The notes under the pieces were generated by a model, which was not told the DNA's origin, searched no databases, and saw only the letters and a list, made by a program, of their open reading frames with translations. 64,000 bases of DNA from Owenia fusiformis. Lineage: Eukaryota; Annelida; Polychaeta; Sabellida; Oweniidae. The stretch is taken from assembly GCA_903813345.2 (NCBI GenBank), contig CAIIXF020000009.1, forward strand, positions 32,460,740 to 32,524,739. Reading direction: 5' to 3'. The position numbers were made by a program, and so were the translations under genes. Shown piece after piece: positions 4,070-54,249 of this stretch (position 1 is its first letter; each line of letters opens with the position of its first letter).

Positions 4070-4606
4070 CTGCAAGTATATTAAAGCAAGGTTGATAAAA
4101 TGAATATTTTTGCAAAAAAATTTGTCCTAAAATGCCCAAAACAATCTATATAGATTTTCAAGGCATAATATAACAAACGATGAACCTAAAACATTAAAAT
4201 AAATGTATCACCCCCAATGACAATTATCATTGTCATACGTTTCAGTCTCTGTGTGACATTTATGTATGATATACCAAAATATAGTGTAAATATAATAATT
4301 CGCAGATCAAGAATCCATAAATGAAGGATAAAGAACATGCAGTATGGTTTGTTGCAGTTTGTAGATAAAACAAATGACAAATTCAAAGATGTCTCTTCCT
4401 TGCTCATCGCTGGCCAAAGCTACTTTTTGCATGTTTTCACATTAGCATAAAATAGACTGTATTAACACCCTATGCGCTAAGTTATATGCCATTTGTGAAG
4501 CCAATGACAAAATATTTCAATTGCACCCTACCAGGTTCTCCTTGTGACCCCTGAATATTTGGTAAGATAGTTGGTACAGATTGTGTGACAGTTACTGGAC
4601 AGCACC

Positions 4607-4613
4607 CCGATAT
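4607..4613. repeat. Left target-site duplication CCGATAT
   Basis: CCGATAT precedes the CAGAG terminus at 4614 and is repeated exactly at 5380-5386 after the CTCTG terminus, defining a 7-bp target duplication. Confidence 0.8.
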
Positions 4614-5379
4614 CAGAGATCACGGTAGACCTTCGCCATTCGCCAATCGCGAATTTTCGAAAGAGGTGGCGAAAAATATGTAAAGGTATTTCGCAGTTAT
4701 GGCGAATTAGAGGTGTCACGGTTTCCCGCTATTGGACCGAATTTCGGTCCAGATGCTTCGGTTCGGGACATGGGACAGAAAGGGTTAATATCGGTACATA
4801 GATTCCTTCCCTAAAATGCATAAAAACGTGTATAAATAGCGAGGAACACCTCCGATTTCGTTCTGAAAAATTAAATATTTTCACTTACCTCGTACCTAGA
4901 TTACACTTCTTTGCATTGAAAAGTGTTATTAACGGACCCGCGATTTCAGGTAGATGGTAATGGTTGTTCGTAAATTTCTTCAGCGTCGTTCGCAAATCGA
5001 GTGCATTATCAGTATGCCGGATGTAGGAGAGAAATTGAAAAATCGAGCCGGCATTTAAGTCGAAAAAGTCGGCAGTTTGGAAGTATTTTGGGACTCCGAT
5101 ATCACAAGGTAAACGAATTGGTGCAGACTATGTAAAATGCCGATCACATTCGCGGCAGATGCTTTACATTCAATTTTAATTGACGTTTTTTTATTTCTGA
5201 ATATGATTTTGAAAAGTGAAACTGAAAGTGAAACTGTCATCATCAGACATTGCATCATTTTTAATGTTCCCTTTTTTACAGTTTTTCAAAATGGCTAATT
5301 CATATTTTGGTTGGCGAAAATTTTTTTGGAAGATTTAGCCACAATGGCTAACAAGTTTTTTCAACTATCGTGATCTCTG
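4614..5379 (-). mobile_element. Non-autonomous hAT-like element, copy 1 (766 bp, inverted relative to copy 2)
   Basis: Terminal inverted repeats CAGAGATCACGGTAG and CTATCGTGATCTCTG are flanked by the 7-bp duplication CCGATAT. The body is a near-identical reverse-complement match to 39339-40086. Its internal ORF, on the minus strand, is damaged: relative to copy 2 it has a 30-nt insertion (in frame) and a 13-nt deletion of GGTGTAATATCAC that shifts the frame, flanked by a short CAC microhomology. The CAGAG-type terminus is hAT-like, although hAT elements normally give 8-bp duplications. Both copies here give exactly 7. Confidence 0.8.
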
Positions 5380-37067: not shown

Positions 37068-37233
37068 TGGAAGGTGTTGTTTTCAGGTTTTAATTATGTA
37101 GGGTTATATAATGTTATGTAATGTTGTATAATGTAATGTAATGTTATGTAATATTATGTAATGGTATATTTTTTATGATGCAATACATTTCTACGACTCC
37201 AAACACCCTGGTTTATTTGTTTATATTATTTAA
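37068..37233. repeat. 166-bp direct repeat, left copy
   Basis: Identical base for base to 37548-37713. It starts TGGAAGGTGTTGTTTTCAGG and includes an ATGTTATGTA microsatellite. The two copies enclose 314 bp. Confidence 0.85.
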
Positions 37234-37547: not shown

Positions 37548-37713
37548 TGGAAGGTGTTGTTTTCAGGTTTTAATTATGTAGGGTTATATAATGTTATGTA
37601 ATGTTGTATAATGTAATGTAATGTTATGTAATATTATGTAATGGTATATTTTTTATGATGCAATACATTTCTACGACTCCAAACACCCTGGTTTATTTGT
37701 TTATATTATTTAA
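37548..37713. repeat. 166-bp direct repeat, right copy
   Basis: Exact duplicate of 37068-37233 at a 480-bp period. No matching target duplication flanks the pair and there are no convincing TG...CA ends, so a recent local duplication is preferred over an LTR pair. Confidence 0.85.
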
Positions 37714-39338: not shown

Positions 39339-40086
39339 CAGAGATCACGATAGTTGAAAAAACTTGTTAGCCATTGTGGCTAAATCTTCCAAAAAAAATT
39401 TCGCCAACCAAAATATGAATTAGCCATTTTGAAAAACCGTAAAAAAGGGAACATTAAAAATGATGCAATGTCTGATGATGACAGTTTCACTTTCAGTTTC
39501 ACGTCAATTAAAATTGAATGTAAAGCATCTGCCGCGAATGTGATCGGCATTTCACATAGTCTGCACGGTGTAATATCACCAATTCGTTTACCTTGTGATA
39601 TCGGAGTCCCAAAATACTTCCAAACTGCCGACTTTTTCGACTTAGATGCCGGCTCGATTTTTCAATTTCTTTCCTACATCCGGCATACTGATAATGCACT
39701 CGATTTGCGAACGACGATGAAGAAATTTACGAACAAGCATTACCATCTACCTGAAATCGCGGGTCCGTTAATAACACTTTTCAATGCAAAGAAGTGTAAA
39801 CTAGGTACGAGGTAAGTGAAAATATTTAATTTTTCAGAACGAAGTCGGAGGTGTTCCTCGCTATTTATACACGTTTTTATGCATTCTAGGGAAGGAATAT
39901 ATGTACCGATATTAACCCTTTCTGTCCCATGTCCCGAACCGAAGCATCTGGACCGAAATTCGGTCAAATATCGGGAAACCGTGACAACTCTAATTCGCCA
40001 TAACTGCGAAATACCTTTACATATTTTTCGCCACCTCTTTCGAAAATTCGCGATTGGCGAATGGCGAACGTCTACCGTGATCTCTG
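39339..40086 (+). mobile_element. Non-autonomous hAT-like element, copy 2 (748 bp)
   Basis: The same 15-bp terminal repeats as copy 1, with one G/A difference between the two ends, are flanked by a 7-bp duplication ATATAAA (39332-39338 and 40087-40093). It has inserted into an older minisatellite of ATTAGCCTATC-type units that resumes after the element. Subterminal regions carry short inverted blocks (TTCGCCA and TGGCGAA). It contains an uninterrupted exon-like ORF. Confidence 0.82.
39468..39811 (+). CDS. Exon-like ORF carried by transposon copy 2
   Basis: The ATG at 39468 opens a frame beginning MSDDDSFTFSFTSIKIECKA and ending NAKKCKLGTR, about 115 residues. The frame closes at a TAA that overlaps a consensus donor: ACGAG|gtaagt, with the splice point after 39811. 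An ORF ending exactly in a donor looks like a captured first coding exon rather than a transposase. I see no BED finger or hAT dimerisation motif. Copy 1 carries the same segment with a frameshift, so it is not intact in both. The product is unrecognised. It is either a host exon fragment carried by the element or part of an autonomous parent's accessory gene. Confidence 0.35.
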
Positions 40087-40093
40087 ATATAAA

Positions 40094-40230
40094 CCAATTA
40101 TTTTACCTTAAATATGATTTAGGTCTATCCTTTTACCTTTACCATTTCATTAACCATTACATTTAGCATTATATTAGCCTATCATTTTCCTTGAACATTA
40201 CATTAGCCTTCCTTTTACTACTAACACTAA
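40094..40230. repeat. ~30-bp ATTAGCCTATC minisatellite, right part
   Basis: More diverged units (GGTCTATCCTTTTACCTTTA, CATTATATTAGCCTATCATT) continue the array after the transposon. Confidence 0.7.
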
Positions 40231-51470: not shown

Positions 51471-52030
51471 TGCATTTTATTATATTTACATTATGTATAT
51501 ATCTTTCAGTATTACATACCAAGCGAAGCATTTGTATGGAAGTCAATGGGAAAGTGAGCATGATAGTGACATAACCTCTTAGAGTTTAACCTTTTAGATA
51601 TAAAGGATTTTCAATATTTCAATTAAAAACAATTAACAACCATGAACATTCACAAATTAATACTTGTATTGTAGGTTGTATTAAACAAGTAGTTTCTTTA
51701 TGACAGTAAAAAAAAGTGTAGTGTAATCAAATTAAATTGGTGCGGACTAATTTCTCATAGTCAATACATGATTTGTGTCTCTGCTAGGCTGTAGTGCCAG
51801 AGGAAGATTTCTAAGACTAAGCACAATAATTCAGTCTGGCCTAGTGCATCAGCTGAGTGTGGTTGATGTTTAATCAACTAAATCACATAATTAAATGATA
51901 ACCACAGTTAGAACCATCAAAAAGAGACTATATGATAGGAAAAACTTACTTTATCTAACAGCTGGCATCATTCTAAAGACATTTATTTCTAAGGTAAAAA
52001 GTGTGTTATTAAAACTTCATTAAATTTGTA

Positions 52031-53430
52031 CAGGTAAGTAGAGGTATGTTCAGGTAAATGCAGGTAAGTATAGGTGGGCAAAGGTAAGTAGAGGTATGTT
52101 CAGGTTAATGCACGTAAGTAGAGGTGGGCAAAGGTTAATGCAGGTAATTAAAGGTAGGTACAGGTAAATGCAGGTAAGTAGAGGTAGGTACAGGTAAATG
52201 CAGGTAAGTAGAGGTAGGTACAGGTAATGCAGGTAAGTAGAGGTGGGCAAAGGTAAGTAGAGGTAGGTACAAGTTAATGCAGGTAAGTAGAGGTGGGTAC
52301 AGGTTAATACAGGTAAGTAGAGGTGGGCAAACGTTAATGCAGGTAAGTAGAGAGGTAGGTACAGGTTAATACAGGTAAGTAGAAGTAGGTACAGGTTAAT
52401 ACAGGTAAGTAGAGGTGGGCAAACGTTAATGCAGGTAAGTAGAGAGGTAGGTACAGGTTAATACAGGTAAGTAGAGGTAGGTTCAGGTTAATGCAGGTAA
52501 TTAGAGGTGGGCAAAGGTTAATGCAGGTAAGTAGAGGTATGTACAAGTTAATGCAGGTAAGTAGAGGTGGGCAAAGGTCAATGCAGGTAGGTAGAGGTAG
52601 GTACAGGTTAATGCAGGTAAGTAAATGTAGGTACAGGTTAATGCAGGTAAGTAGACATGGGCAAAGGTCAATGCAGGTAGGTAGAGGTAATGCAGGTAAG
52701 TAGAGGTAAGCAAAGATTAATGCAGGTAAGTAGAGGTAGGTACAGGTGATGCAGGTAAGTAGAGGCAGGCAAAGGTTAATGCAGGTAAGTAGAAGTATGT
52801 ACAGGTGAATGAAGGTAAGTAGAGGTGAGCAAAGGTTAATGCAGGTAAGTAGAGGTAGATACAGGTAAATGCTGGTAAGTAGAGGTGGGCAAAGGTTAAT
52901 GCAGGTAAGTAGAGGTGGGCAAAGTTTAATGCAGGTAAGTAAAGGCAGGTACATGTAATGCAGGTAAGTAGAGGTAGGTCGAGGTAAATGCAGGTAAGTA
53001 GAGGTAGGTACAGGTAAATGCAGGTAAGTAGAGGTGGGCAAAGGTAAGTAGAGGTAGGTACAAGTTAATGCAGGTAAGTAGAGGTGGGCAAAGTTTAATG
53101 CAGGTAAGTAAAGGCAGGTACATGTAATGCAGGTAAGTAAAGGCAGGTACATGTAAAGCAGGTAAGTAGAGGTAGGTACAGGTTAATGCAGGTAAGTAGA
53201 GGTAGGTACAGGTAGTAGAGGTAGGTACAGGTAAATGCAGGTAAGTAAAGGTATGTACAGGTAAATGCAGGTAAGTACAGGTTAAACCAAGTAGAGGTAT
53301 ATATGCAATTAAGTAGAGGTAGGTACAGGTTACTGCAGGCAAGTAGAGGTGAGCAAAGGTAAAAACAGGTAAGTAGATGTAGGTACAAGTGGGTATACTT
53401 AAGTATAGGTCAGTACAAGTAGGCACAGGA
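52031..53430 (+). repeat. 1.4-kb minisatellite of consensus 5' splice sites
   Basis: Units of about 26-31 bp read GCAGGTAAGTAGAGGTAGGT then ACAGGTTAAT. By eye about 38 units keep GGTAAGTA, and over 30 have CAGGTAAGTA exactly. CAG|GTAAGTA is complementary over ten bases to the 5' end of metazoan U1 snRNA. The long minus-strand ORFs through the array (YLPLLTCINL-type repeats) are by-products of a stop-poor repeat. Confidence 0.92.
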
Positions 53431-54249
53431 AAGTGGTGAAATCTGACTTATTAATCAGTAGGTAGATAAATAGCCTGAGGACACTCTCCACATAAACAAA
53501 CGTCTCTCATCCCAGGGTTAAACCAGGAACCTTGGGAAGGTCTCAAGTATCAAACTAATGCAAAAAAGGCAAAAGCAGGAAACACAATAAAACAACAAAT
53601 TGGAAAAACAAAATGTGTGCTTACATACCTCCTAGAAGTATTATGAAAATACTGATTCATCTTTAATATTTATATATCAAACTGGTAGAGCTCACATTTA
53701 TAAATATATTGGACCTAACTTACCATAACTTAAACTTGGATATATATTAAACTTAAAAAATTTTGATACCATCCCTCCCGTGACCCTTCACACCCGATCT
53801 ACTGCTTTAATTGGAGATTTTACATCTCATAAACACACCTACATATAGAATTCATACTGGATGTAGAAATGGCATAAATATATATTTTATTAGTAATTAA
53901 TCCCATGTGTTTTAATAAACACTAATGTAGATTTGTAATAAAGCACTCCTTCCAGCTGAAATTAACCCATTTTTGATTAATTTCCCAAATAAATGTTTTA
54001 TAAGCAATTAAACCCACTTTTGATAATATACACTAATGCAAAGATGTAATTAAATGTGAGATATATCCAGGAATTCCTAAAATAAGTATTTGCAATTAGT
54101 AAATACTTTATTTCTTCTTTTCCAGGTATTATTTTTCATTAAAATCCTAAAATAACTACATAGTAATCATGTTAACACATGCCCTTGTAAAAAGCAATAG
54201 GAGCAAATTAACAAACAATACACATTTGTAAATCCACCTACCTCAGATG
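53431..54249. other. Spacer between two minisatellites
   Basis: AT-rich spacer, no feature. Confidence 0.5.

Follow-up and report, generated by a model that had tools for sequence, protein, structure and literature searches.

The primary papers on minisatellites that contain splice donors are reportedly Turri 1995 and Canestro 2002. Minisatellite-like duplications of exon-intron boundaries, termed "mirages", are described in amphioxus; they occur in Adh3, where units measure 10–72 bp, and in globin genes, with similar repeats in TnC and PGBD5 (PMC3087553; also PMC3902484), and regular splicing is said to be undisturbed by them, although their length is unstable (PMC3087553). In humans, the minisatellite of IFI6 (6-16) gives multiple splice donors (Turri 1995, as cited in a passage of PMC4526556), and excerpts of PMC10809524 report dual-specific splice sites in tandem repeats of human genes, of the UBC type. 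In telescripting, as outlined in part of PMC8316553, intronic U1 sites suppress premature polyadenylation. The titles and abstract openings of this literature contained no report of a minisatellite of U1 sites that serves as a decoy, and the retrieved portions of PMC4039745 (on intronic minisatellites of C. elegans) and PMC2572611 held nothing on donor arrays.

The array analysed here is located in a 64,000-nucleotide stretch of the Owenia fusiformis genome (C9:32460740-32524739, hereafter the window), and the genome searched for comparison comprised 498 Mb in 525 contigs. The first-pass annotation had described the array as a dense series of consensus 5′ splice sites that might serve as a docking site or decoy for U1 snRNP. 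Our analysis favours, with a probability of roughly 0.6, an ordinary minisatellite built from an AGGT-containing decamer, one block of which is a perfect donor.

Architecture of the array and pairing with U1

TRF assigns the array a period of 30 with 46.7 copies over positions 52031–53387, and our segmentation script resolved each 30-bp unit into three related 10-bp blocks (A, B and C; Table 1), mostly ordered A-B-C. AGGT is common to all three blocks. The left edge of the array is abrupt and the right edge gradual. Within the interior the GT dinucleotide is intact in 43 of 43 A blocks, 37 of 42 B blocks and 30 of 39 C blocks, and the variation of blocks B and C largely corresponds to two linked unit subtypes. 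A higher-order repeat was considered and rejected, with mean unit identity at 0.82–0.86 across lags 1–11.

Table 1. Coordinates of the array, of a candidate exon at its left edge and of three arrays of the same donor word elsewhere in the genome (positions without a contig prefix refer to the window).
Feature	Coordinates	Strand	Description
Whole array	52031..53434	+	30-bp minisatellite; blocks A CAGGTAAGTA, B GAGGTAGGTA (or GAGGTGGGCA), C CAGGTTAATG/CAGGTAAATG
Well-ordered interior	52031..53267	+	43 A, 42 B and 39 C blocks; sharp left edge
Degenerate right edge	53268..53434	+	GT missing in 5 of 9 A-type blocks
Weak candidate non-coding exon (predicted)	51962..52033	+	acceptor-like CTTACTTTATCTAACAG before it, its end coincides with the first CAG/GTAAGTA; no frame is free of stops
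C6 array (L010 with L024/L025)	C6:25949511-25952545	-	44-bp unit, 68.8 TRF copies (~69)
C7 array (L008)	C7:31300025-31302032	+	42-bp unit, 47.9 copies (~48)
C8b array (L028)	C8:38591142-38591375	-	34-bp unit, 6.9 copies (~seven)

We identified 39 copies of GGTAAGTA on the plus strand of the array and none on its minus strand; the plus strand of the whole window likewise contains 39. The form CAGGTAAGTA accounts for 34 of these sites, every one inside the array, in agreement with the roughly three dozen consensus 5′ splice sites first counted. Two further statements of the first-pass annotation hold in part. The core said to be present in every unit is carried by most of them (37 of 43 interior A blocks) but is absent from the rest, and only 4 of the 9 A-type blocks at the right end keep the GT. 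The U1 site said to recur every ~26–31 nt does so mostly, at 30 nt and also at 29 nt, but spacings of 20, 32, 49, 60, 90 and 98 nt occur as well.

The U1 genes of this genome were located with the Rfam model, and as 42 of 7406 candidates were scored, their number is a lower bound. The U1 5′ end, read from one U1 copy, is ATACTTACCTG, and block A therefore pairs with it perfectly, over ten bases. Computed mean energies of the duplex with U1 are -13.6 kcal/mol (block A), -9.3 (block B) and -5.6 (block C); among 8000 decamers sampled from the background, 0.2% reach -10 kcal/mol. The ideal base-pairing with U1 that had been ascribed to the repeat thus extends to the genome's own U1 5′ end, as would be expected of a docking or telescripting element. 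On the contig that carries the window, at least 34 U1 snRNA genes of equal model score are clustered at C9:23745153-23771556 (minus strand), mostly ~750 bp apart.

The window is AT-rich (GC 0.30–0.39) and rich in tandem repeats, with 75 TRF rows. Two TTATGTAATG arrays with identical TRF consensus and score lie 480 bp apart at positions 37094–37169 and 37574–37649, which suggests a local duplication. The regions 4531–5285 and 39383–40163 appear to represent one dispersed element present twice, in opposite orientations and with matching ORF fragments.

Divergence of the donor core here and in arrays across the genome

On the alignment of interior units the donor 9-mer shows a divergence of 0.036, compared with 0.159 for the rest of the unit (ratio 0.23), an approximately fourfold reduction that places it second among 30 windows. 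The earlier impression that the core drifts less than its surroundings was therefore correct for this array, and divergence is not uniform along the unit. Mismatches to the block consensus number 11/430 in block A versus 105/810 in blocks B and C together, and with the four subtype columns dropped 11/430 versus 51/648; the nominal p of 1.6e-4 for the latter assumes, as do our other Fisher tests on block mismatches, an independence that the array copies do not have. Singleton variants, which are private to one copy and the youngest, show no significant deficit in block A (3/430 versus 10/810, p=0.56), although these are few events.

We compared this bias with a neutral simulation of block duplication, deletion and point mutation, using runs matched for divergence from the parameter sets that yielded at least 30 of them (3 of 12 sets fell short). 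The bias of the array was equalled in 11 of 1215 runs (0.9%) for the pre-chosen 9-mer and in 164 of 1215 (13.5%) for the best of 30 windows. The corresponding frequencies in a smaller first simulation were 3/136, 0/132 and 0/43 for the best third, and 22/136, 4/132 and 2/43 for the best 9-mer window. The low divergence of the core is thus suggestive, and no proof of selection.

The donor 9-mer CAGGTAAGT occurs 4020 times in the genome (1997 + 2023), with 34 occurrences (0.8%) within the 1.4-kb array; a genome-wide excess of this word was rejected, its reversal being found 4455 times. Defining a locus as three CAGGTAAGT at 5–35 nt spacing, our own clustering of the 73 matches listed gave 11 loci including this array, and hence ten siblings. 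Control words of the same composition gave 8 loci (TGAATGGAC), 6 (GATGCAAGT), 7 (ACATTGGGA) and, for two further words, 0 and 0, while the control word AGTGACATG marks one large dispersed family (among 100 of 110 matches listed). The 73 cluster matches of CAGGTAAGT compare with 56, 22, 2, 110, 61, 0, 14, 13, 55, 0 and 1 for 11 scrambled or reversed words; the donor word is second of the 12 and therefore at the high end, yet inside the range. The annotation had also asked whether the unit exists elsewhere in the genome. All 16 exact matches to its 18-mer core, and all 7 matches to the first 270 bp, lie in the array, and we rejected a dispersed family of the unit; this search skips common words, so that diverged copies may escape it.

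Five sibling arrays could be measured in the same way. Their core/rest ratios are 0.49 in C7 (core rank 5/42 among windows), 1.15 in C12 (22/38), 1.48 in C6 (31/44), 1.18 in C8a (16/28) and 0.51 in C8b (21/34), so that in three of the five divergence is higher in the core than in the remaining bases; the ratio of the present array is the lowest among the six CAGGTAAGT arrays. The seven control arrays chosen by scrambled words gave 0.54, 0.88, 0.00, 0.62, 0.00, 0.28 and 0.74, where the two values of 0.00 come from arrays of only 11 and 6 copies, and choosing an array by a shared word therefore itself lowers the ratio. Taken together, the sibling and control ratios indicate that an array can have a low ratio without a splice word and that retention of the splice core is not the rule; of our results, this one weighs most heavily against a general U1 function.

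Sibling arrays at exon donors

Among the ten siblings, three lie directly at a named exon, one lies near such an exon, three adjoin an open frame only and three have neither. The C6 array begins at a kringle exon's donor (...GSVTDASNFCR/GTAAGT) and occupies an intron of a multi-kringle gene in sense orientation, with the next kringle exon following on the same strand. Its units repeat CCAATTACTGCAG/GTAAGT or GTGAGT, resembling the exon end of the sister module, and the exon end plus donor appears as CAGGTAAGT, CAGGTGAGT and variants. The intron of the sister kringle module, which we read through, contains no such array. Because the sequence ahead of the CAG in the C6 unit is 65% pyrimidine, these sites are acceptor-like as well. 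The C7 array starts in a PF15874 exon (6e-8), and its units repeat a sequence like the end of that exon plus GTAAGT; similarly, the C8b array starts at an exon of the PP2A regulatory subunit B56 (1.2e-10) and repeats its end and donor.

The C8a array lies ~90 nt past the donor of a methyltransferase exon. The arrays at C12, C3a and C6b start at open frames of 117, 182 and 112 codons, which match no Pfam family and are equalled in length at 2.5%, 1.4% and 2.7% of random positions, respectively; C6b may simply be a coding repeat. No exon was found at the C3b, C1 and C6c arrays. In locus L029 (C3:6492445, plus strand), 17-bp units such as TTCATTTTTCAGGTAAG occur near 2445–2700, after a 182-codon open frame; with a pyrimidine tract followed by CAG/GTAAG, these units resemble, judging from their sequence, exons of zero length or sites of recursive splicing.

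We also compared exon adjacency between donor-word and control loci with a Pfam scan of edge ORFs. At the 11 CAGGTAAGT loci, 64 of 66 ORFs were scanned (the other two being near-duplicate C6 ORFs inside the repeat) and matched B56, PF15874 and kringle, with one member each. The 139 ORFs of 20 of the 21 control loci matched Ion_trans (2e-9), RasGAP (5.6e-6) and Casein_kappa (4.7e-4), again with one member each, the last two falling under Pfam's cut-offs; control locus C2, for which the flanks analysed were short, and all loci of AGTGACATG, a word of a dispersed family, were left out. The flanks tested were also short for C6, C7, C12 and C8a, and for C6, where only 16 seeds were clustered, part of the array was counted as flank. 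With exons at 3 of 11 donor-word loci and at 1–3 of 20 control loci, adjacency does not clearly set the donor word apart, and the three clear siblings are marked by the copied exon end plus donor rather than by their position next to an exon. Genes with ~7 to 69 tandem units of exon end plus donor offer natural experiments on the spliceosome's choice among many donors and on how exon-intron boundaries become minisatellites, and in this respect are more useful than the reading of the present array as a U1 element.

Origin of the array and comparison with known systems

The readings we considered rank in the order of ordinary minisatellite, mirage at an unseen non-coding exon and selected U1 array. 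In the first, a 10-bp word containing AGGT would have expanded by slippage and unequal exchange, and one of the three blocks would happen to be, or descend from, a perfect 5′ splice site; we infer birth by tandem exchange and no selected function for the array. Since AGGT is present in all three blocks, the GT of the donor is in part ancestral to the repeat. The ordinary reading is favoured by the linked B/C subtypes, the repeat-rich window, the existence of arrays of other words, the diverged cores of siblings, the undepleted singletons in the core and the loss of GT at the degenerate edge. Also in its favour, no Rfam family reached its gathering score in the window, and Pfam returned nothing strong for 158 window ORFs (107 + 51), with weak matches at 7.8e-4 to 0.0056. 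Counted against it are the ratio of 0.23, its rarity in the simulated runs for a pre-chosen 9-mer, the intact GT of every interior A block and the high rank of the donor word among controls, by matches and by loci. If a plus-strand transcript crosses the array, it would carry 34–39 strong U1 sites in cis. Such sites could mask poly(A) signals in the vicinity or delay the release of the RNA, but this would be a by-product and not a role acquired by selection.

The array may also sit at an unseen non-coding exon, which is the second reading. Here a real exon-intron junction would have had its donor tandemly amplified, the exon being non-coding (5′UTR or lncRNA) and ending in TTTGTACAG/GTAAGTAG, and the splicing machinery would act at the first donor or at a few of them and pass over the others. 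We regard this as possible, though doubtful. In accordance with it, the sharp left edge begins exactly at a perfect donor (10/10 at 52031, against 5/10 directly to the left), an acceptor-like site lies 72 nt upstream of that donor, and three arrays of this kind exist in the same genome, at the kringle, PF15874 and B56 exons; the 10–72 bp units reported for Adh3 also include the size seen here. We failed to identify a coding exon at the left edge, where the reading frames leading to the first donor stay open over only 7, 3 and 13 codons, lengths equalled at 85% of random positions. Furthermore, the 14 nt before subsequent donors match the left flank at only 6–7 of 14 positions, compared with 10–14 in the three clear siblings. 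The left-edge word GTACAGGTAA recurs at some B/C joints.

The gene context is consistent with either an intergenic or an intronic position. Pfam scans of ORFs of at least 55–60 aa outside tandem repeats (without 3 ORFs of L005 and 16 of the 24 of L007) detected no gene whose exons surround the array. Among the window ORFs and 84 ORFs from the 40 kb downstream, one clear gene was identified, EF-hand SCP-like and on the plus strand like the array, with three detected exons at C9:32538488-32540589, ~24 kb and more downstream. Because its start exon was not found in the scan of those 40 kb, the array may be situated between genes or within a long first intron, the latter in line with amplification at an upstream exon. 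A query with the EF-hand SCP-like protein gave 150 scored matches genome-wide, suggesting that this genome has a large family of SCP-like or EF-hand proteins.

The function put forward in the first-pass annotation, that of a selected array serving U1 as docking site or decoy and thereby holding its transcript on chromatin or guarding it against early polyadenylation, was not upheld, and we consider it improbable. The perfect pairing at 34 sites and the lowest ratio of the six arrays are in its favour. The plus-strand RNA would be 71% purine and, with a computed z of -0.83, not unusually structured, on which basis an unusually structured RNA was rejected as a candidate. AATAAA and ATTAAA are sparse (0.7 per kb versus 3–6 in the flanks), though the composition of the array explains this. 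Counted against it are the three siblings in which the core is the more diverged part, the absence of a significant shortage of singletons in block A (few events) and the scrambled-word arrays, of which all seven also have ratios below 1 (two of them at 0.00 with few copies). The cellular pool of U1 is large relative to 39 sites per transcript, which argues against a decoy acting in trans. A landing strip in which a non-coding plus-strand transcript would have its U1-pairing block kept by selection while the spacers drift is decidedly improbable. Were the array a functional U1 element, it would provide a natural test of how U1 density controls RNA retention and polyadenylation.

Two other readings carry little weight. 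The A block, CAG/GTAAGT, could act as acceptor and donor at once, with units spliced to units as in UBC and in line with the dual-specific sites reported in PMC10809524 for human tandem repeats; the 20 nt before the sites average 28% pyrimidine (maximum 35%, n=33), which makes acceptor use unlikely and this reading very improbable. That the minus strand encodes a repeat protein is hardly credible: open frames there reach 282 codons (longest at 52337–53182, minus strand) because the repeat has no stops, the longest is probably an artefact of this, and the frame would be broken by units of 20, 29, 32 and 49 nt and has no gene context.

Compared with the described systems, and as far as the sections cited above portray them, the array shares U1 complementarity with telescripting sites and units that are splice donors with the IFI6 minisatellite. 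Telescripting sites sit in expressed genes, and so does the IFI6 minisatellite, in which the use of two downstream repeats is reported, whereas a transcript of the present array is hypothetical. As in the UBC-type dual-specific sites, AG/GT lies inside the unit, but the array lacks an acceptor tract and is not a coding repeat. With the amphioxus mirages, again as described in those sections, it has in common short tandem units with AG/GT splice signals and edge units that escape homogenisation; it differs in that no exon is shown at its edge and in that the sequence preceding its donors is no copy of the left flank. The kringle, B56 and PF15874 siblings are closer to the mirages in that an exon end plus its donor is repeated, and the present array looks like an ordinary repeat related to those known from lancelets and humans.
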